Shown: one piece after another, positions 24,421 through 34,320 of the stretch
Layout of the letters: the number at the start of each line of letters is the position of its first letter
How positions within the stretch are numbered: position 1 is the first letter of the stretch
Source: Promethearchaeota archaeon
GTDB lineage: Archaea > Asgardarchaeota > Thorarchaeia > Thorarchaeales > Thorarchaeaceae
Direction: 5' to 3'
Assembly (NCBI GenBank): GCA_014728035.1
Contig: WJMJ01000046.1
Location: 124,001 to 188,000, forward strand
DNA length: 64,000 nt
Notes under the pieces: generated by a model
Seen by the model: the letters and a program-made list of their open reading frames with translations, nothing else
What the model was told of the DNA's origin: nothing
Database searches by the model: none
Translations under genes and position numbers: made by a program

Positions 24421-25929
24421 CTATTTTTCAGCTCGTAACAATGCATCAGACAGAGATTTAGCTTTTCCAGATGGCTCAAAATATCGTTTTCTTATTTTTA
24501 CAAAAGTTGGTACTGAAACAGTTTCGCCGACAAAAAGTGATTCTCCAACCTCCAAGGTAGTGATTGCATCCAATGCAGCTCTATCAATGCCCTCACTGCT
24601 TCTTCCGATATGATCCAAATCATATGGATTAGTACACCGGAAAATAGCTTGATTACTACACTGACTCAGAACAGTTGTAGAAAGCTTGACAGGACGTTGA
24701 GAAATCAAACATAAAAGTGCAAAGAATTTTCGACCTTCTCGTGCAATGGTTTCAATACGACTTTTTGGAAGAGCTAAATCATGTCGACTCTCAGGACAAA
24801 ACTGATGAGCTTCTTCAAGAACTAATAGAAAAGGAGGAATAGATTCTCTTCGCCGAAGATAGAGTAGCTCGTTAGCCAAATGAGCTACCACAATTTGCTT
24901 TTTTCTAAGGCTAATGAAATCGCTGAGGTCTATGATTGTTAACCTACCAGGTTGTACAATTGACTTAATATCTGGAACTGCCTCCTTCCCAAATAATCGT
25001 GTTTCTTCTAGATTATAGAGCCAGCCAATCAGTGCATCGCGAGTGTTACCTTTGATAGTGTCATCATCTCGTATATAGTCAATCAATTCCTTCAGAGAAT
25101 AACCATCCTTATAGAAAGATTGAATTTCGGATAATACCCGCTTTAGTTCTCTTTTTTGTACGGTACTCATATCCGAAACAAGAGACCCAATGCCTTCTGC
25201 TGTCATCGAATTAACCGGGATTTGTAGATGAGCCCCACGGATATGCTCAACATCAACTATCGAGCTTTCGGTTTTGGTAAGAGGCTCAATGTCTTTTAGA
25301 TATCTGTACTCACCATGAACATCTATTAAGACAATTGCAATCCGTCCCTGCTTCTTTGTACGTGTAAGTAATTCTTCAAGCAAAACTGAAACAAAGTAGG
25401 ACTTGCCAGCCCCACTCATAGCGAGAATAGCAAGATGTTTTGACAATAATCTATCGATACTGGGAGTAAATGCAAGATTGTGATGACCTAAAGAACCGAG
25501 ATTTAAGCCGTTATTGGGATCTAGTCTGAGAAATTGGGATAGTACTGATGCATCAACCTGTCGAACTACAGAACCAGGTGACACTGCGAAATATGGACGA
25601 ACCGGTCGATTGTTTGCCCATAGCCCAACCACACGTGCAGAAGCAACCGTGTATTGCCATCGATCGGTTGGAAAAATTGAACGAAGGGGTTCTCCACGTG
25701 ATTGATATTCCCTAACAGCTTCTGCATGTTGATAGTATCTATTAGTACGAATTAAATCTTGAACCCGAGATATTACCTCTCCTGCAGGAGTTACAACTGA
25801 TACAAATTCACCCCTTTTAACAATTATTTCATTGGAAACTCCCTCTAGAACAAAAGAAAATTCCATGACATTTGGCGTGCCATTTTCACAAACCACGGTT
25901 CCAAGACGATTATGAGTGTCAGATACCAT
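24421..25929 (-). CDS. herA: DNA helicase/translocase HerA
   Basis: Hexameric FtsK-HerA family ATPase that works with NurA in DNA end resection. It has an N-terminal HAS-barrel-like beta domain (residues about 1-140), Walker A LAMSGAGKSYF, the IVLIDVHGEYRYL segment, Walker B FLLVLEEAHQFCPE and the arginine-finger region (ISQRPVKLSTTVLSQC). The length of 502 residues is typical. nurA ends seven bases upstream and is transcribed in the same direction, the standard archaeal pairing. Mre11 and Rad50 genes are not seen here. Confidence 0.93.
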   Translation of the reverse strand: MVSDTHNRLGTVVCENGTPNVMEFSFVLEGVSNEIIVKRGEFVSVVTPAGEVISRVQDLIRTNRYYQHAEAVREYQSRGEPLRSIFPTDRWQYTVASARVVGLWANNRPVRPYFAVSPGSVVRQVDASVLSQFLRLDPNNGLNLGSLGHHNLAFTPSIDRLLSKHLAILAMSGAGKSYFVSVLLEELLTRTKKQGRIAIVLIDVHGEYRYLKDIEPLTKTESSIVDVEHIRGAHLQIPVNSMTAEGIGSLVSDMSTVQKRELKRVLSEIQSFYKDGYSLKELIDYIRDDDTIKGNTRDALIGWLYNLEETRLFGKEAVPDIKSIVQPGRLTIIDLSDFISLRKKQIVVAHLANELLYLRRRESIPPFLLVLEEAHQFCPESRHDLALPKSRIETIAREGRKFFALLCLISQRPVKLSTTVLSQCSNQAIFRCTNPYDLDHIGRSSEGIDRAALDAITTLEVGESLFVGETVSVPTFVKIRKRYFEPSGKAKSLSDALLRAEK

Positions 25930-25935
25930 ATTGGA

Positions 25936-27099
25936 TTAACCCCCAAAAGGATTTCTAGACCGACGCTTTTCAAGTGTTGCATAAGTTAAACCAGATAGCG
26001 CCATTAGTCTATCAATAATTAACTGAGTTTCATTCAAACTTATCTTCGCTCGGGCATCTGCCTCTAAAATAGGAGATGGGATGCCATATTCAGGATGTTG
26101 CCACGAAAGAGGTAATATGGCAGCAAGAGCTTTGTCAATTTTACTTGAAACATTGACTTCATTATCTTTTACCAGTATTTCAACCCGTAGTGGTAAATCA
26201 TCTCTTGCTGTTTTCAGATAGGTTACCCAAATTGAAGACGCCCAATCAGTCAAGTCTTTAGGTACAGAATTAGGAGTTTGAGTAAACTCAACAGAGTATC
26301 TGAATGCAAAAGTTCGTTCAGCTTCCTCTAAAAAGGTGTCAAGTAAATCACAGTCCCTAGAAATTTTCAATAACCACCTATAGTCAATACCATGCATTTT
26401 ATCAAAAACGGAGGGTTTTCGGATGATGTGTGGAAGGACATCACCCAGCATGTTGACAATTCTAGCAGATCTGCTATCTTTGACTATACCAACCAATGTG
26501 GTTTTTTTCTTTGTTGCAGTAGAATATAATTGTCGATATAAGGCTAAAACTTGTTCATATTTCTCATAAACCAATGAGCCAGAAGGAGGACGATCTTTTG
26601 GATGGTAGAAAAGAGACCCATCAATAAGAATCAAATCAGTATGAAACTCTTCAAGGACTGCAAGAGTCACACGTAGTTCTGTGGCAATTCTTTCAAGTGA
26701 CGCTAGCTGATCTAATTCGGTACTTGAAAGTGTTAACATAATGGGACGGACAGTTGGTTCTGGAAAAGCATCAGGATAAAAATCAACTGTTGGGCCTTCG
26801 GACGACTGAAAGCTGAACACAACCGCAACTCCACGAGTTAGAAGTAAATCCATTGAACGGAAACGGCGACGAACTAATCCACCATCAACACCAGCAATTC
26901 GAAGCCCTGAAAGTGGTGTTGGTTGAATGGATTTGATAAAATCAAATTCGTCAGTGCTTTTGGCAAGTAATGGAAATCTGTTTAGTTCAATTTCGCCTTT
27001 TATTTCTCTTAGGACAGAACCAAAACGAGACCTTGTAGATTCGATTCGCTCAATCTCTTCCACAAGTAAAGACAACATTCGATCAAGATTCTTATCCAT
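25936..27099 (-). CDS. nurA: 5'-3' nuclease NurA
   Basis: RNase-H-fold nuclease that partners HerA. It has the N-terminal catalytic Asp motif RIAGVDGGLVRRRFRSMD, a second acidic motif in LILIDGSLFYHPKDRP, and later VGIVKDSRSARI and PILEADARAKI. Its start overlaps the pyrG stop by 8 bases and its end is seven bases before herA, so the three form one operon. The length of 387 residues is within the family range. Confidence 0.9.
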   Translation of the reverse strand: MDKNLDRMLSLLVEEIERIESTRSRFGSVLREIKGEIELNRFPLLAKSTDEFDFIKSIQPTPLSGLRIAGVDGGLVRRRFRSMDLLLTRGVAVVFSFQSSEGPTVDFYPDAFPEPTVRPIMLTLSSTELDQLASLERIATELRVTLAVLEEFHTDLILIDGSLFYHPKDRPPSGSLVYEKYEQVLALYRQLYSTATKKKTTLVGIVKDSRSARIVNMLGDVLPHIIRKPSVFDKMHGIDYRWLLKISRDCDLLDTFLEEAERTFAFRYSVEFTQTPNSVPKDLTDWASSIWVTYLKTARDDLPLRVEILVKDNEVNVSSKIDKALAAILPLSWQHPEYGIPSPILEADARAKISLNETQLIIDRLMALSGLTYATLEKRRSRNPFGG

Positions 27100-28771
27100 C
27101 AGTCCTCACACTTCTATATTTCATTGCTGCCCTTATTAGACCCAAGTATAATGGATGTGGACTACCTGGACGAGAGAGAAATTCTGGATGAAATTGCACA
27201 CCAATCCAGAAGGGATGCTTCGGTATCTCAATAGCATTAATGATAGTATCGGATTCATCGAGTGCAGAAACAACTAAACCTTTTTCATGCATTTTACTGA
27301 TATATCGGTCAATTAAATGAAAACGATGCCTAAATCTTTCGAAAGTTTCAGTTGCTCCATAGATGCTATGAAGTTTTGTACCTTCCTTAATAATAACTTT
27401 CTGACCACCCAAACGCATTGTTCCTCCCTTATTTTCAATTATTTTTTGTTCATCCATCAAATCAACAACGGGATAGAGACTGTCATCGTTCACTTCGGTA
27501 GTATGAGCATCTTTCCATTTCATAATCTTCCTTGCAAAAGCAACTGTTCCCAGCTGACCACCATAACAAATTCCAAGAAATGGGATCTTTGAACTCAGTG
27601 TAACCGCCGCGGCACTGATCATTCCCTCAACACCACGAGCTCCAAAACCAGGTGTGAGAAGTACTCCATCAACATCCTTCAAATCTTCTGTCAAGCAAGA
27701 TTCATCACACCGTTCATCAGTTTCAATCCATTTGATTTTTATTTTCACACCACAGGCTGCTCCTGCATGAGAGAGAGCTTCATTGATGCTTTTGTAAGAA
27801 TCACTGAGGAGGGTGTATTTCCCTGGCATTGCAATAGTAATTGTGCCTTTTGTACTTTCAAACGATTCAACAATTTCTGCCCATTTTCTTGTATCAGGTT
27901 CATGATCTGTAAGATTGAAATGGCGTGTGAGAATAGAACCCAATTTCTGTTCTTCAAAGTATAAAGGAAGGCGATAAATCACAGGGATATCAGGATTAGA
28001 AATAACATTATCTTCTGAAACATTACAAAACAAAGCAACTTTAGCTGTAGCTGAAGGAGTTAGTTGTTTCTCTGCACGGCAAACAACTATATCAGGCTGC
28101 AACCCAAGACCTTGTAGTGTACGAACACTATGTTGCGTTGGTTTTGTCTTAAATTCTCCCACGGACTTCATGTATGGAACCAATGTGACATGTACAAATG
28201 CAACATTCTGACGCCCGATTTCAAGTGCCAATTGACGAACTGCCTCAAGGAAAGGCATAGCTTCTATGTCACCGACAGTGCCACCAATTTCTACAAGCAA
28301 TACGTCAGGACGAGGTGTTTTTTCAATTAATTCCCAAATTCGCTGTTTTATTTTATCAGTGATATGAGGTATTATTTGAACGGTTCTGCCTAAAAAACTC
28401 CCTTTCCTTTCACCCAAAATTACCGAGATATAGATTTGCCCCGATGTGATATTATGAGAGGGGTGGGCGTTCATTCCCGTAAATCTTTCATATGTTCCAA
28501 AATCCAAATCTATTTCTGATATTGTAAAATCTAAATCACCTGCAGGTCTGAAGTTCCATGCTTGTTCAGTAACAAAAACTTCACCGTGTTCTATTGGATT
28601 CAATGTGCCAGGGTCAATATTTAGATATGGATCTATTTTCACAATACGTACACTATATCCCCGAAATTGAAAGAGCTTTGCAAGAGATGCAGTTGTCACG
28701 CCTTTACCAATACCAGACAGTACGCCTCCAGTCACAAACACCAAACGAGTTGATTCGGTTTTTTCATTCAA
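27092..28771 (-). CDS. pyrG: CTP synthase
   Basis: Converts UTP to CTP with glutamine. The synthetase domain begins FVTGGVLSGIGKG and includes PYLNIDPGTLNPIEHGEVFV and LVEIGGTVGDIEAMPF. The C-terminal glutamine amidotransferase domain has the nucleophile motif LGICYGGQLG and the catalytic HPEF near the end. The open frame extends to 28804, but the TTG at 28771 (MNEKTESTRLVF) gives the family's usual N-terminus. It heads an operon with nurA and herA, an unusual partner for DNA repair genes. Confidence 0.92.
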   Translation of the reverse strand: MNEKTESTRLVFVTGGVLSGIGKGVTTASLAKLFQFRGYSVRIVKIDPYLNIDPGTLNPIEHGEVFVTEQAWNFRPAGDLDFTISEIDLDFGTYERFTGMNAHPSHNITSGQIYISVILGERKGSFLGRTVQIIPHITDKIKQRIWELIEKTPRPDVLLVEIGGTVGDIEAMPFLEAVRQLALEIGRQNVAFVHVTLVPYMKSVGEFKTKPTQHSVRTLQGLGLQPDIVVCRAEKQLTPSATAKVALFCNVSEDNVISNPDIPVIYRLPLYFEEQKLGSILTRHFNLTDHEPDTRKWAEIVESFESTKGTITIAMPGKYTLLSDSYKSINEALSHAGAACGVKIKIKWIETDERCDESCLTEDLKDVDGVLLTPGFGARGVEGMISAAAVTLSSKIPFLGICYGGQLGTVAFARKIMKWKDAHTTEVNDDSLYPVVDLMDEQKIIENKGGTMRLGGQKVIIKEGTKLHSIYGATETFERFRHRFHLIDRYISKMHEKGLVVSALDESDTIINAIEIPKHPFWIGVQFHPEFLSRPGSPHPLYLGLIRAAMKYRSVRTDG

Positions 28772-28862
28772 TAGCAGCAACACCAGACCAAGATATCTGG
28801 ACACATCCAGAATTTATTGCTGGAAGATATGAATCATGTATAAGTGATTCGTTATCTTCCAT

Positions 28863-29450
28863 TCATCCAGTAGCTTGAGCTAAAACACTAGCTCTAAGAG
28901 AGTCTTGGAAAATTAGCTGGAAAGCTTCCATAATCATATTCCCCTCTTTAGCTATACTTTTGAAAATAGGGATCGAATCAGGTAAGCGAAGATAGGATCT
29001 AAATCGAGTCTCATCAATTGCATTTGGTAAATCTTGTTTGTTTAAACAAACAGCAATAGGAAGTGACGTGTCTTCTTCGGAAAGCATCGAAAGTAACTCA
29101 TTCCAGCTTTGCAGGTTCTCTTCCAGAAGATTGTCTTGTGAATCAGCAACGAAGATGATGCCATCCGTTCCAACTAAAACAACCTCTCGAGTAGAACGGT
29201 AGAAATCCTGTCCGGTTGCAGACCAGATATGTGCATTCACCATCCAGCTATTCCCAAGTGGAATTGGAATAGTACCGAAATCACAAAACATGGTTCTACC
29301 AACAGTATTCTCAATTGATGTCAGCCGATCACTGAAATCTAATGCTGAGAATAACCATTGAATGGATGTTGTTTTTCCACTCATGGCCGGTCCAAAGAAC
29401 ACAATTTTCACATTGACTGTTTTATTGCCATAATCTATTATCAAACTCAT
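28863..29450 (-). CDS. MglA-type small GTPase
   Basis: A 195-residue Ras-like GTPase of the MglA/Arf-like group. G1 is GPAMSGKTT (about 20-28), then NTVGRTMFCDFGTI with the switch I Thr. A G3 region reads WSATGQDFYRSTREVVL, in which the usual DxxG Asp is missing. It is preceded by PIPLGNSWMVNAHI, an order that matches MglA (TVPGQ) rather than Ras. G4 is NKQD and G5 is likely SIAKEG. No C-terminal lipidation motif is seen. It is the last gene of a three-gene unit whose first gene encodes a double roadblock protein, the fold of MglB GTPase-activating partners. Confidence 0.85.
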   Translation of the reverse strand: MSLIIDYGNKTVNVKIVFFGPAMSGKTTSIQWLFSALDFSDRLTSIENTVGRTMFCDFGTIPIPLGNSWMVNAHIWSATGQDFYRSTREVVLVGTDGIIFVADSQDNLLEENLQSWNELLSMLSEEDTSLPIAVCLNKQDLPNAIDETRFRSYLRLPDSIPIFKSIAKEGNMIMEAFQLIFQDSLRASVLAQATG

Positions 29451-29462
29451 AACCTCCTAATT

Positions 29463-30380
29463 TCATGTACCCCACATGCTATCAACCCAAGCACCAAGCC
29501 CAGATAAGGTGCCATTTTTTACACAGTCTGAAAAATCTTCATGCCACTCAGCTCGAATGAACTGAATCAAATCAGATACAGTGCCACCTTTCCAACCAAT
29601 AGTTTCGAAAAGGTTTCGCTCTGTCAAAGATGTGGAAGTACCAAGTTCTCGTGCAAGACGAATTCTTGAAAGAAGAGTAACAGCTCTTCTTGCAGCATGC
29701 ACATAATTGTTAATTTCTTCTACGAATACATCACGAGTTAATTTTTCAGCTTCATCATCAAGATTTAGAACCACTTTGGTTATATGTTCAGAATTTTCAA
29801 TATCACGTAAAGATTTTCTTAGTAATCTTCTAATTCGTTCAAGAGATTGATTTTTTCGTTCCAAAATTTTTGATACAATATTCTTCTCGACATCCAAAGA
29901 CCTAGCAATAGAACTAATCAATGAAAACGAGAAATCAGAGGGGGACATAATTCTCAAGATTCCACAATTTCCGGATTCGGCTACTTTTTCAGTAATGGAA
30001 CTCAGTGTTTCCGAATTTATTTCCATGCCCAAAGACTTGGAACCAAGAGGAACTGAAATAACCCAGCTTGAAAAGGTGTTAATTCTTTCCAGCGCTAAAC
30101 GAAGATTGGACGAAAGACAACAAACAACAGTACGATTTACTTCATAATTGTGCTTTTCTTCTTCCAAAACGGATACGATATCATTTTCAGTCGTGAAATC
30201 ACGCCAGAAGACTAGTTTATGCCGGTGAGAGCAAAGTGATGATAGGCTCTCTGTGAGATCATCAACCAACTCGATATCTTCACCAACAACTAGAACAGGA
30301 ATTCGAGATAAGATCGTATTCAGAAGAAGGTGAAACTCCGAATTCATGATCTCAATTAGATTCAATATAGAATAAGTCAT
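29463..30380 (-). CDS. Unrecognised protein of the GTPase/roadblock module
   Basis: I do not recognise this 305-residue protein. The N-terminal 120 residues alternate strands and helices (IPVLVVGEDIELVDDLT, VVCCLSSNLRLALERI, SWVISVPLG) like a small Rossmann or receiver-like domain, but have no P-loop. Residues about 165-245 are strongly helical and charged, probably a coiled coil (LERIRRLLRKSLRDIE). The C-terminal 60 residues form a separate helical part with several Trp. Its start overlaps the stop of the roadblock gene (ATGA) and the GTPase gene follows 12 bases after its own stop. That tight coupling suggests it acts with both. Confidence 0.6.
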   Translation of the reverse strand: MTYSILNLIEIMNSEFHLLLNTILSRIPVLVVGEDIELVDDLTESLSSLCSHRHKLVFWRDFTTENDIVSVLEEEKHNYEVNRTVVCCLSSNLRLALERINTFSSWVISVPLGSKSLGMEINSETLSSITEKVAESGNCGILRIMSPSDFSFSLISSIARSLDVEKNIVSKILERKNQSLERIRRLLRKSLRDIENSEHITKVVLNLDDEAEKLTRDVFVEEINNYVHAARRAVTLLSRIRLARELGTSTSLTERNLFETIGWKGGTVSDLIQFIRAEWHEDFSDCVKNGTLSGLGAWVDSMWGT

Positions 30381-31324
30381 TTATCGCGCCCCACCATTAA
30401 CAGGCTTTTTCCAGGCCCACCAGAAAGCAATAGATCCTTCAATTCTTCCGGAACAGATGGTTTTGTCAGTGATGCATTCTCCAATAATTGTCTTGACTCC
30501 TCAATGTAATGCTTGAGAAGTAAACGCATTAACCCTAATTTCTGGCTGTCCTTATCAACATAAAGACTGAAGACGCCATTGGGCACTGCATAAATGAAAT
30601 GACGCATATTGTCTGTTTCACAAAGAACTGTTTGGAGAGAACTATTACGAAGAGTTCGGATTACTCGTTCAGAAGCATCATGAAGGGCGAAAGACATGGC
30701 TGCTAAACGGTCATCGGTAAAGCCATCAAGTGAAACTCTAACACCACCACTTAGAGCAAGAAAAACAGTGGAGATATTTGGGATACTATCATGGACCTGA
30801 CGAAGAAGAGACCTTAAACTTAACGCACGCGACCTATCTAATGATACAATAGAACGTTTTAGTGAGTACTGGGTTGTATCAATTTCAGAAACAGAAAATC
30901 CTTGAAGCACTTTCTGGGTTTCATCAGAACTGAATGAACGAAGTGGCGGAAGGTTCCCTTCTAGATGTTGTTTCAAAAGGAATGAAACACGAGACAAATT
31001 ATCTTTCATTTCAATGAACAATGCAGCGAGGTTAACACGTGGTGCAGTCGTAACGGCAAGAAAGTAATTCGAGTCTTTAGGTAAAGATGCTAAGAATACT
31101 TTTGATGTTTCTGATTCCATAAGAAGATATTTGAAATTCCCATGGATTAATCGCGCAACTCCAAATATTGCACATGTGGAGGATGCAACCGCAAAGACCT
31201 CATCCTTACTGAACCACACTCCAGCACTTGCAACAGGTAAGCCATCTTTTTGAATCAGAACTACATTTTCAACGCCAGTTATGTTCTTAATCTTTTGAAG
31301 AGTTTCATTCAACTCGTCGGTCAT
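30377..31324 (-). CDS. Double roadblock/LC7-domain protein
   Basis: A 315-residue protein with two roadblock-like domains. The first covers residues 1-115 (LQKIKNITGVENVVLIQKDGLPVASAG ... YLLMESETSKVFLASLPKDSNYFLAVTT). The second covers about 175-285 (LRQVHDSIPNISTVFLALSGGVRVSLDG ... TVLCETDNMRHFIYAVPNGVFSLYVDKD). Roadblock proteins bind small GTPases, and MglB is the activator of MglA. A tandem fusion could mimic the usual dimer. It is the first gene of the module, 47 bases downstream of a TATA-like element. Confidence 0.78.
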   Translation of the reverse strand: MTDELNETLQKIKNITGVENVVLIQKDGLPVASAGVWFSKDEVFAVASSTCAIFGVARLIHGNFKYLLMESETSKVFLASLPKDSNYFLAVTTAPRVNLAALFIEMKDNLSRVSFLLKQHLEGNLPPLRSFSSDETQKVLQGFSVSEIDTTQYSLKRSIVSLDRSRALSLRSLLRQVHDSIPNISTVFLALSGGVRVSLDGFTDDRLAAMSFALHDASERVIRTLRNSSLQTVLCETDNMRHFIYAVPNGVFSLYVDKDSQKLGLMRLLLKHYIEESRQLLENASLTKPSVPEELKDLLLSGGPGKSLLMVGRDK

Positions 31325-31405: not shown

Positions 31406-32698
31406 TTACATATGAATAAGAGCTGCATCTGGAACTTCTTGAAAAATTTCTCGTGAGGCCTTACCTACCTTTTTCCTAAATGGTTCACGAGTATACACTC
31501 GGATTACGTCAAGGTAAACTTTCATCATTTCTGCTATATTGGAGAGATCTGATAGATTTCTAGTGATTTTTTTACCTTCTATGATTTCGTAAATACTTAT
31601 TTCCATTGGATCCATTTGATGCGGATTATATGGGACAGAAGGAAGTGTAGGAACATCAACAATGACTTCCTCAGGAGGCACATCAGCTGATTCTGCAATC
31701 TCGTCTTGAATGCTCTCTCTAACTCTTTTCTTTGTTAGAAGTTTTGATACAAAACGGTCTTGAGTATGTAGAACTTTCTCAAAGGATGATTTGTATAATT
31801 TTCGGGAGTCAAGCAAGTTAACCATTTTTACAGCCTCTTGAGCATCCTCAGAAATAGAAGAATCAAGATCTCTTATTTGTGAAAAGAGAGACATATCATC
31901 TAACTCCAGAAAGTGATCAGGCTCAGAAAAGCTAGTTAATCCTAATTCACTATCAGCCGCATTCATCAAATGTACTAGCATAACTTCTACACTTCTGACA
32001 GTTTTATGATAATAAACATTTAGAAACATTTCATAACGAGCAACTAAGAATGACTCCAACGCCCCTCTTGCATTTATATCAAATTCAAGAGTACCAGTAT
32101 CAGAAACTTCGAGACTATTGATTAAACGATGGATATCGACGAGTCCGTAATTAACCCCACAATAAAAAGAGTCGCGAATTAGATAGTCCATCTTATCAGC
32201 ATCTACTTGACCAGCAACAATCCCACTTGTGATTATATCATTGGGTTCAATCACACGCCCCCTAACAAGGTGAGATATACGATTCTTTGAAACACCACCA
32301 TCCCCAAGAATATCTCCTACTACACTATTTAGTATAAGCCACTCAGTTACATCTTCATGATTCCAACCTCTATGTTCGATTAAACATTCTTCGAATACAT
32401 GACTAAATGGACCATGGCCTAAATCATGAAGAAGAGCAGCTAATCGGATATCTTGCAAATCGTCTTCATCTAATCCAATCTGTGGCAACAACCGTTCACC
32501 AAGAAGCCCAGCTAGATATAGTGCACCAATACAATGACCAAATCTACTGTGTTCTGCGGTGGGATACACAAAATGGCCTCCAGACAGTTGCCGAACTCGG
32601 CGTAATCGTTGATATGGTTCAGAGTCAATTATTTTCATTTCAATAGGAGTAAGATGAATAAATCCATGTACCGGATCATTAATTTCAATGGTGGTCAT
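31406..32698 (-). CDS. HD-domain phosphohydrolase, SAMHD1/dGTPase-like
   Basis: A 430-residue metal-dependent HD protein. The ligands are visible: His in EHSRFGHCIGAL, the HD pair in LLHDLGHGPFSH and the late Asp in QVDADKMDYLIRDSFYCG. The opening IEINDPVHGFIHLTPIE and the VDADKMDYL motif place it with the SAMHD1/YdhJ group of dNTP triphosphohydrolases, which lower dNTP pools. It is preceded 14 bases upstream by an XRE regulator on the same strand, probably in one operon. Substrate is inferred from the family. Confidence 0.85.
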   Translation of the reverse strand: MTTIEINDPVHGFIHLTPIEMKIIDSEPYQRLRRVRQLSGGHFVYPTAEHSRFGHCIGALYLAGLLGERLLPQIGLDEDDLQDIRLAALLHDLGHGPFSHVFEECLIEHRGWNHEDVTEWLILNSVVGDILGDGGVSKNRISHLVRGRVIEPNDIITSGIVAGQVDADKMDYLIRDSFYCGVNYGLVDIHRLINSLEVSDTGTLEFDINARGALESFLVARYEMFLNVYYHKTVRSVEVMLVHLMNAADSELGLTSFSEPDHFLELDDMSLFSQIRDLDSSISEDAQEAVKMVNLLDSRKLYKSSFEKVLHTQDRFVSKLLTKKRVRESIQDEIAESADVPPEEVIVDVPTLPSVPYNPHQMDPMEISIYEIIEGKKITRNLSDLSNIAEMMKVYLDVIRVYTREPFRKKVGKASREIFQEVPDAALIHM

Positions 32699-32712
32699 TA
32701 TTATACCCCAAT

Positions 32713-33456
32713 CTATACTTGTGGCTCAAAGCTCCTTAATTTTTTTACTAGAAGCTCTGCGGTTTTCAACTCGGATACACAAAGTGGAAGATGTATACTA
32801 TCAGCAATTTTAACAGCTAATGGGTCTAATTCTTTAACACCTTGTAACACAACAACAGCGGGTTTTACAGCCAAGGAGGTTCCTATCTGACTGGCTTTTA
32901 TTGCAACCATTGGAGACCTCCCCGAACTGACATTTGTCAGAATAGCAGCCCTCTGAGTTGTGCCTCCATAAAGACGTAAAAGCTGCTGTGGAGTTAGAGA
33001 AACTATCGCATTTACACTGTCCAGTGCGGTAAACCCATAAATGTCACGGTCTAAAAGGGATCGATGTGTTAGAATTCGACAGTCTAAGCATTCAATGAGA
33101 TATCGGGCGGGTACTGGAACTCCAAATTCACGACTATCTAGAATTGCCTCTGAAGAAATTTCTGGAGCAATAAGCTTTTCCAATGCCATAGCGATTCTCC
33201 CACCTCTAGCTGCATCCATCTCAATTAGGCCTTCAACAAACCGTTTAATTGTATCTACACGAGGAGATTTTCTTCTCCCACTTTCATAATCACTAATTAC
33301 AGATGGAAAAACATCCAAATGTTTCGCTAAGTCTTTTTGAGAGATTTGGAAGCGTTCACGCCATCGTTTCATAATAGACCCAGGATTAGTTTCAGATAAA
33401 CAAATCTCACCAGCCATTTCTTCTGCTAGTCTTTGAATTGTTCCACTTTGAACCAT
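32713..33456 (-). CDS. XRE-family transcriptional regulator
   Basis: A 247-residue protein. Residues about 30-80 form an XRE helix-turn-helix (RERFQISQKDLAKHLDVFPSVISDYESGRRKSP). The C-terminal part (about 110-245) is an alpha/beta domain, probably ligand-binding (YGFTALDSVNAIVSLTPQQLLRLYGG ... VVLQGVKELDPLAVKIADS). Archaea commonly carry this architecture, whose ligand is unknown. It is divergent from the GPN GTPase gene, and its frame overlaps only the 5' open extension of that gene, not its likely coding part. Confidence 0.8.
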   Translation of the reverse strand: MVQSGTIQRLAEEMAGEICLSETNPGSIMKRWRERFQISQKDLAKHLDVFPSVISDYESGRRKSPRVDTIKRFVEGLIEMDAARGGRIAMALEKLIAPEISSEAILDSREFGVPVPARYLIECLDCRILTHRSLLDRDIYGFTALDSVNAIVSLTPQQLLRLYGGTTQRAAILTNVSSGRSPMVAIKASQIGTSLAVKPAVVVLQGVKELDPLAVKIADSIHLPLCVSELKTAELLVKKLRSFEPQV

Positions 33457-33522
33457 ACCACTATTTTTGTATGTGACGCTGATAAGACTTGCGAGCTACA
33501 ACCGAAGCACTCAAAGAGTAAT

Positions 33523-34320
33523 ATGAAAATTGAAATCACGGTTCAGAATATGTTCTTCATATTTGTAATTGGTACCGCAGGTAGCGGAAAATCAGCTCTA
33601 ACAGCAGCGTTTGAAAAATGGCTGGCCACATCAGAGTTAGGTGTTACTGTCGTAAATCTTGATCCCGGAGTTGAAGACCCACCATACACCAGTGATGTGG
33701 ATATCAGAGAGTACGTTGATTATGGACAGATTATGCACGAATTTGGTCTAGGTCCAAATGGAGCTCTTGTTGCAGCACTGGATATGGCTATAAGTCATAT
33801 CGATGATCTGAAGGAAGAGATAATCGATTATGGAAGAAATTATGTATTGATAGACTGTCCGGGACAAATGGAATTATTTGCATATAGAAATTCAGGTCCT
33901 CTCCTCATATCTAGTTTGAAGGGAAATAATCCCGCCTTATCGTTATACCTATTGGATGCAAATATCGTACGAACCCCACCAGGCTACCTATCATCTATGT
34001 TATTAGGAATTTCAATAAACATTCGATTCTCATTGCCACAAATTGGTATTCTGAGTAAATCTGATTTGTTATCCGAAGAGAAAGTAAACGAAATTATTTC
34101 ATGGTCAACACAGCCATTCATTCTACAGGATGCTTTGGATATAACAGCAGAAGGAATGCTTAAGGAATATTCTTCTTCGATTTTGCGAGTGCTTGAAGAT
34201 ATTGGAAGTGGGTCATCTGTGTTGCCTATATCATCACGTCAGATGGAAGGAATGGAGATTCTATATGGGGAAATCCAGAGAATTCTTGCGGGAGGAGAAA
34301 ACTACCAAACATACGAGTAG
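33523..34320 (+). CDS. GPN-loop GTPase
   Basis: Homologue of eukaryotic GPN1-3 (XAB1) GTPases, which aid RNA polymerase II assembly. It has Walker A VIGTAGSGKSAL, the diagnostic FGLGPNGALVAAL loop, VLIDCPGQMELF as the G3 motif, and SKSD as the G4-like motif. The frame is open upstream, but MKIEITVQNMFF at 33523 or the MFFIF at 33550 gives the normal N-terminus. It is followed one base after the stop by the tRNA methyltransferase gene. Confidence 0.9.
   Translation: MKIEITVQNMFFIFVIGTAGSGKSALTAAFEKWLATSELGVTVVNLDPGVEDPPYTSDVDIREYVDYGQIMHEFGLGPNGALVAALDMAISHIDDLKEEIIDYGRNYVLIDCPGQMELFAYRNSGPLLISSLKGNNPALSLYLLDANIVRTPPGYLSSMLLGISINIRFSLPQIGILSKSDLLSEEKVNEIISWSTQPFILQDALDITAEGMLKEYSSSILRVLEDIGSGSSVLPISSRQMEGMEILYGEIQRILAGGENYQTYE

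Follow-up and report, generated by a model that had tools for sequence, protein, structure and literature searches.

Within the 64,000-nucleotide stretch of Thorarchaeia DNA analysed here (hereafter, the window), three closely spaced genes on the minus strand encode a double-roadblock protein (ROB), a DENN-like protein (MID) and a small GTPase (GTP):

30377-31324, minus strand: ROB, double-roadblock protein of 315 aa, gene 1 of the operon (Pfam Robl_LC7, 8e-12)
29463-30380, minus strand: MID, DENN-like protein of 305 aa, gene 2 (no Pfam or NCBIfam family)
28863-29450, minus strand: GTP, MglA-type small GTPase of 195 aa, gene 3 (Pfam Arf/Ras/Roc)
30377-30380, minus strand: ATGA overlap of the ROB stop and the MID start, seen in the sequence

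The first-pass annotation of this DNA had proposed a tight operon of a tandem roadblock protein, an unrecognised middle protein and an MglA-like GTPase, with an ATGA overlap between genes 1 and 2 and a spacing of 12 bases between genes 2 and 3. All three open reading frames were recovered as described, as were the overlap and the 12-base gap between MID and GTP, and the 4-base ROB/MID overlap is retained in most Thorarchaeia loci. The tandem roadblock was borne out by two stretches of ROB that match Robl_LC7, and MID is indeed without a Pfam family.

In Thorarchaeia, the module is usually flanked downstream by genes for CTP synthase, NurA and HerA (24421-28804 in the window) and upstream by HD-domain, HTH and GPN-type P-loop genes (31406-34320). 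This wider order (CTP synthase, NurA, HerA, HD, HTH) was seen in Thorarchaeia only and is not kept in other classes. The genes common to this locus in all nine Asgard families compared, which include Thor, Loki, Hermod, Odin and Baldr members, are ROB, MID and GTP, and no fourth gene at this locus is common to all nine. A DNA-repair link for the module is therefore not claimed, as these neighbours are restricted to Thorarchaeia and no fourth gene is held in common across classes. A Myxococcus-like role in cell polarity was also considered and not adopted, because no conserved motility or polarity partner was found beside the module.

Among solved structures, the best relatives of GTP are MglA proteins (E-values 4.6e-31 to 1.4e-29), with Rab7 as the next family (5e-10), in agreement with its initial description as MglA-like. 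Three of its motifs bear on catalysis:

29370-29393, minus strand: G1 P-loop GPAMSGKT (GTP residues 20-27), near-invariant in 96 operon GTPases
29295-29297, minus strand: Arg52 of GTP, equivalent by alignment to the intrinsic arginine finger Arg53 of MglA
29205-29222, minus strand: G3 region SATGQD (GTP residues 77-82), with Gln81 as the catalytic equivalent and no Asp, as in MglA

Arg53 of MglA is described as an intrinsic arginine finger (PMC10933270). Its counterpart, Arg52, is present in 96 of 96 operon GTPases, as is Gln81, but among 23 neighbouring paralogues that were aligned only 1 has Arg52; the conserved positions of GTP comprise G1, G4, R52, T53 and Q81. The presence of Arg52 and Gln81 throughout these proteins points to MglA-type catalysis that would be positioned by a roadblock platform. 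The absence of the usual G3 Asp, noted in the first pass, stands as an observation, but MglA itself has TVPGQ at this place and, judging from the sequences, the missing Asp is a normal MglA trait. No C-terminal cysteine lipidation motif occurs in GTP as encoded in the window.

The two roadblock domains of ROB are delimited as follows:

30962-31324, minus strand: roadblock domain 1 (ROB residues 1-121), from AF2 secondary structure and an hmmsearch match over residues 3-112 to the Thor roadblock 7f8m
30479-30850, minus strand: roadblock domain 2 (ROB residues 159-282), from AF2 and hmmsearch matches over residues 159-292 to 9jue (9e-9) and, weakly, to MglB (0.03)

Both domains are also apparent in the AF2 model of the full chain (pLDDT 78), for which Foldseek retrieved the Thor roadblock (2.4e-7) as well as Ragulator and MglB (both below 1e-5). 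The two-domain roadblock platform of MglB-type GAPs is thus found in ROB within a single polypeptide.

For MID, an AF2 model built on an alignment of 64 sequences (pLDDT 89.4, pTM 0.85) divides the protein into three parts:

29916-30368, minus strand: alpha/beta domain (MID residues 5-155), cDENN-like, with five beta-alpha units plus a hairpin in the AF2 model and no P-loop
29511-29894, minus strand: all-helical domain (MID residues 163-290) in a d-DENN-like position, with AF2 helices at 163-191, 198-204, 208-245, 254-261 and 268-279
29466-29510, minus strand: C-terminal tail (MID residues 291-305), pLDDT 43-45, predicted to be disordered alone

Within the helical domain, R232, F274, I275, E278, W279 and F283 are invariant. 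The tail has a mean column entropy of 1.51 vs 1.85 for the protein as a whole, with Trp303 invariant; since it is disordered in the monomer model yet well conserved, we regard it as a candidate docking motif. A Walker A motif was found in none of the 64 members, and the modelled chain starts directly with the cDENN-like domain, with no N-terminal longin (u-DENN). The Rossmann-like N-terminus described earlier is accordingly alpha/beta in character, but is better termed a P-loop-free DENN-like alpha/beta domain.

When the MID model was compared with the PDB by Foldseek, 9 of the top 20 matches had a probability of 0.5 or more, and 7 of these 9 were DENN proteins (FLCN complex 8dhb_J, 0.99; DENND10, 0.89; DENND1A/1B, 0.66-0.87; C9orf72 complex, 0.69). 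Several other matches were P-loop ATPases. No match had an E-value below 0.001, the best being 7e-3 (TM about 0.40, rmsd 7), and the alignment covers the helical domain (163-290) but superposes poorly. The DENN domain has been described as a five-stranded alpha/beta sandwich, similar to P-loop NTPases without their motifs, followed by an all-helical d-DENN (PMC3521125), and the predicted topology of MID is consistent with this description. The five-stranded alpha/beta fold free of nucleotide-binding motifs that marks a cDENN domain was recovered for MID from the combination of AF2, Foldseek, the Walker A scan and the profile comparison (hhalign) described below.

A sequence link to the DENN families is provided by the MID profile, which matches Asgard proteins of about 360-380 aa at a segment preceded by a longin-like domain. 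This longin-cDENN family (members of about 350-450 aa) was aligned as A5, and 27 members were checked against Pfam. Comparison of MID with A5 by hhalign gave a probability of 92 and a score of 55.6 over MID residues 6-67 and the cDENN-like segment of A5, as against a maximum of 22.3 in 60 column shuffles, 20.2 for the reversed profile and 15-16 for the ROB and GTP profiles. The A5 members in turn matched Pfam Folliculin (7 of 27, best 6e-7), C9orf72-like (8 of 27) and, precisely at the segment held in common with MID, Pfam DENN (0.0024), while the A5 profile matched the cDENN segment of SMCR8 in the PDB at 0.024. A joint MID and longin-cDENN profile found DENND10 and SMCR8 at the same place, below threshold. 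Direct matches between MID and eukaryotic DENN sequences were all sub-threshold, no single direct step being significant, and single-protein scans of MID against Pfam and NCBIfam, together with a direct sequence-profile search of the PDB, gave nothing above noise, only weak names such as Sec2p, RRF and RRM_9. The Pfam DENN model (PF02141) was not used alone as evidence, because none of 228 Asgard genomes has a match above its curated cut-off and because the bacterial control Thermotoga also matches it at E 0.1. Nor do we count MID as a canonical member of the DENN module, since its own chain lacks a longin and its scores stay under the Pfam cut-off. The case for a relationship rests on two independent lines, the predicted fold and the chain of profiles, which converge on one family, and on these grounds we consider MID very probably a cDENN homologue. 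Structure prediction and profile searching, the checks that the first-pass annotation had proposed for this protein, place it nearest to DENN-type GTPase regulators, and not in a known family unrelated to GTPases.

Full-length longin-cDENN proteins occur, often several per genome, in four families (f18, f20, f21 and f22) in which MID was not found and which, as a guess, are Heimdallarchaeia. Most genomes with MID contain only weak, partial matches to the longin-cDENN family; G129 and G131 hold both kinds of protein. The second domain of the longin-cDENN proteins is probably homologous to the N-terminal domain of MID, but unlike MID they start with a Folliculin-type longin and are present in multiple copies per genome in those four families. 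At three loci (L124:6773-7837, L125:7243-8337 and L126:6225-7310), the encoded longin+cDENN proteins show signals of the Pfam families Folliculin, C9orf72-like and DENN. By their sequences, the Asgard longin+cDENN proteins look like archaeal DENN-module proteins in eukaryotic domain order.

To what extent the three genes belong together can be assessed from their distribution. Of 59 close relatives, 46 have MID, all family members among them. In the phylum as a whole, a profile search with weak cross-matches set aside gave MID in 112 of 228 genomes. MID and full-length ROB were both present in 110 of the 228 genomes, with MID only in 2, ROB only in 4 and neither in 112 (Fisher p 4e-57, uncorrected for phylogeny); as all the genomes counted come from one phylum with a common history, these are non-independent events. 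Rare co-occurrence in relatives had been named at the outset as an outcome that would count against a joint function, and ROB and MID are instead almost always together. The order ROB-MID-GTP is kept, with few exceptions, in nearly every locus whose contig reaches far enough, down to a MID identity of about 23-30%, and the adjacency spans nine families at 22-35% identity; conservation of the order down to such low identity argues that the operon is not due to chance.

A scan of named records with one peptide pattern, a weak test of absence outside Asgard archaea, returned Thor, Loki, Hermod, Odin and Baldr records and one labelled Patescibacteria. The latter (L109, JANBVM010000002.1) contains a Loki-type ROB-MID-GTP operon and is probably mislabelled or contaminated. 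Another record (L085, JAGGSW010000061.1), labelled Odinarchaeota, has a ROB identical to that of a family f12 genome and clusters with Baldr, not Odin. The genus of strain MK-D1 appears to be g52, and in G139 of this genus ROB and MID adjoin; G136 was rejected as MK-D1 itself, its best identity to the MK-D1 roadblock being only 39%.

Exceptions to the three-gene order, which none of the loci examined first had shown where the contig was long enough, were sought afterwards. Some Hermod paralogues consist of ROB and GTP without MID (L177, L178, L179, L180 and L181), indicating that MID is dispensable to the pair. In several cases, these two-gene variants lie amid more small roadblock and GTPase genes. 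In the Loki genus g57 (L182:5448-6347, L183, L184, L185:1653-3348), MID stands alone; in G153, a member of this genus, ROB and GTP are still paired on another contig and MID has been retained after leaving the operon. The second operon copy of G203 (L187:4751-6634) has a MID reduced to its last 89 residues, and in the Loki genome G150 (L176:4543-5559) a full-length ROB occurs with no MID or GTP beside it. In trees of ROB and GTP, Thor and Hermod each cluster by class, and the Hermod two-gene copies fall beside the Hermod three-gene copies, a region for which the tree tool warned of long branches. This placement suggests that the module was inherited vertically and that MID was lost in a Hermod paralogue.

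Taken against known systems, the module is a variant that brings features of MglAB switches together with those of DENN regulators. As in the MglA/MglB systems of Thermus and Myxococcus, the GTPase is nearest to MglA, with its intrinsic arginine finger, Gln and Asp-less G3, and a roadblock partner is encoded nearby. In contrast to those systems, the roadblock dimer is fused into one chain of two diverged domains, an extra DENN-like protein is encoded between the ROB and GTP genes, and the host is an archaeon. An MglA-type GTPase with a roadblock and a dedicated third protein also recalls the bipartite MglB/RomY GAP and the RomR/RomX GEF of Myxococcus, from which the module differs in having MID encoded tightly within the operon. 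Searches of Pfam, NCBIfam and the PDB recognised no homologues of RomR, RomX, RomY or MglC and revealed no similarity of MID to RomR, RomX or RomY. The eukaryotic DENN module (DENND1-6, FLCN/FNIP, C9orf72/SMCR8) is made up of longin, DENN and d-DENN; its longin, a structural cousin of the roadblock, lies ahead of cDENN in the chain and binds the GTPase (PMC3521125). MID resembles it in its alpha/beta-then-helical build without a P-loop, in its Foldseek neighbours and co-linear profile segment, and in its genetic link to a small GTPase. It differs in that there is no longin in cis and a roadblock pair next door, in that the GTPase is of the MglA type and not Rab, Arf or Rag, in falling below the Pfam DENN cut-off, and in being archaeal. 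Because the roadblock pair is encoded by the preceding gene, which overlaps MID, just as longin precedes cDENN, ROB and MID may be read together as a split DENN-like regulator.

Our main interpretation, to which we assign a probability of roughly 0.6, is that ROB and MID make up a DENN-like module divided over two chains, in which the roadblock pair occupies the place of the longin, and that this module regulates the GTPase of the same operon. ROB, MID and GTP would constitute a three-protein GTPase switch, and we predict with considerable confidence that they form a physical complex. By its sequence, GTP is a switch of the MglA type that brings its own arginine finger. If MglB is a guide, the fused roadblock pair would replace the MglB homodimer as the GTPase-binding platform, and by the same analogy ROB is a probable GAP that would act by positioning GTP's own Arg52 and Gln81. 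MID would supply a cDENN-type alpha/beta domain and helices, without a longin, as fold and profile predict, and docking may occur partly through its conserved C-terminal tail. We favour a role for MID in nucleotide exchange on GTP or in its allosteric control, with GAP activity left to ROB; as a putative GEF in the strict sense, we rate it a little short of an even bet. The first-pass idea of a self-contained GTPase switch gains support from the near-perfect co-occurrence and from the likeness of MID to DENN-type regulators, and from fold and profile the suggested effector or exchange factor may be specified as a DENN-like regulator subunit.

Whether MID serves as GEF, GAP co-factor or adaptor is something we infer, and the alternatives deserve to be weighed. 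MID could be DENN-related and yet be no exchange factor, its part being to stabilise ROB or to assist it as a GAP co-factor. RomY has such a part with MglB, and so have DENN domains within the FLCN:FNIP and C9orf72:SMCR8 GAP complexes. The closest fold match of MID is to the FLCN GAP complex, some DENN proteins can act as GAPs (PMC12803157), RomY has a stimulating effect on MglB, itself a roadblock GAP (PMC9481161), and the existence of ROB-GTP pairs without MID makes MID look like an add-on. However, GTP carries its own arginine finger, so that no GAP arginine is required from MID, and we regard a co-factor role as rather unlikely. A localisation adaptor or effector, recruited by GTP in its GTP state and not regulating the cycle, is a distinctly unlikely identity for MID: something other than lipidation may place GTP, given that it lacks the cysteine motif, and the conserved tail suggests docking, but the DENN-like fold points to nucleotide-cycle regulators and the ATGA overlap couples translation of MID to ROB, not to GTP.

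The DENN likeness itself could reflect a shared minimal alpha/beta layout, with MID representing a new and unrelated family of GTPase partners. This would agree with the non-significant Foldseek E-values, with the P-loop ATPases among the other matches and with Pfam DENN scores below cut-off everywhere. We nevertheless find it unlikely in view of the profile link to the longin-cDENN proteins, which lies far above the shuffles in one co-linear segment, and of the Folliculin-type longin that adjoins that segment in those proteins. Finally, some ROB-GTP pairs do without MID, as would be expected of a hitchhiker in the operon that has nothing to do with the GTPase; adjacency over nine families at such low sequence identity, and retention of MID in G153 outside the operon, make this extremely improbable.

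The split DENN-like reading also bears on the origin of the DENN module. Zhang et al. (2012) proposed that this module grew out of a prokaryotic MglA/roadblock pair and described its DENN domains as known from nowhere else (PMC3521125). Their proposal would lead one to expect just such an Asgard operon, in which a DENN-like protein joins an MglA and a double roadblock, with no further member. As a tentative extension, which we hold at under even odds, the operon may preserve, in split form, the state from which the eukaryotic DENN module arose. Its components would have been a GTPase of the MglA type, a roadblock pair like that of MglB and a DENN protein standing on its own, with longin-fused relatives in other Asgard lineages, and the longin-fused arrangement would have passed to eukaryotes as the DENN/FLCN/C9orf72 family. 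In the open-access literature (subscription journals lie mostly outside this scope), we found nothing that joins "Asgard" with "DENN domain", and DENN goes unmentioned in the searched texts on Asgard roadblocks, longins, GTPases and ancestry (PMC10933270, PMC10307638, PMC12872458).

Tran et al. (2024) reported that Asgard GTPases can hardly be matched to regulators because the GTPases of MK-D1 generally lack operons (PMC10933270). ROB-MID-GTP is an exception to this scarcity and gives a matched set of GTPase and regulators. The same module is carried by Thorarchaeota SMTZ1-45 (L057), the source of a roadblock protein that earlier work expressed and crystallised. In eukaryotes, DENN proteins regulate the Rab, Arf and Rag switches that serve membrane traffic and nutrient sensing. 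Where they came from had been unexplained, and becomes a testable question with three small proteins.
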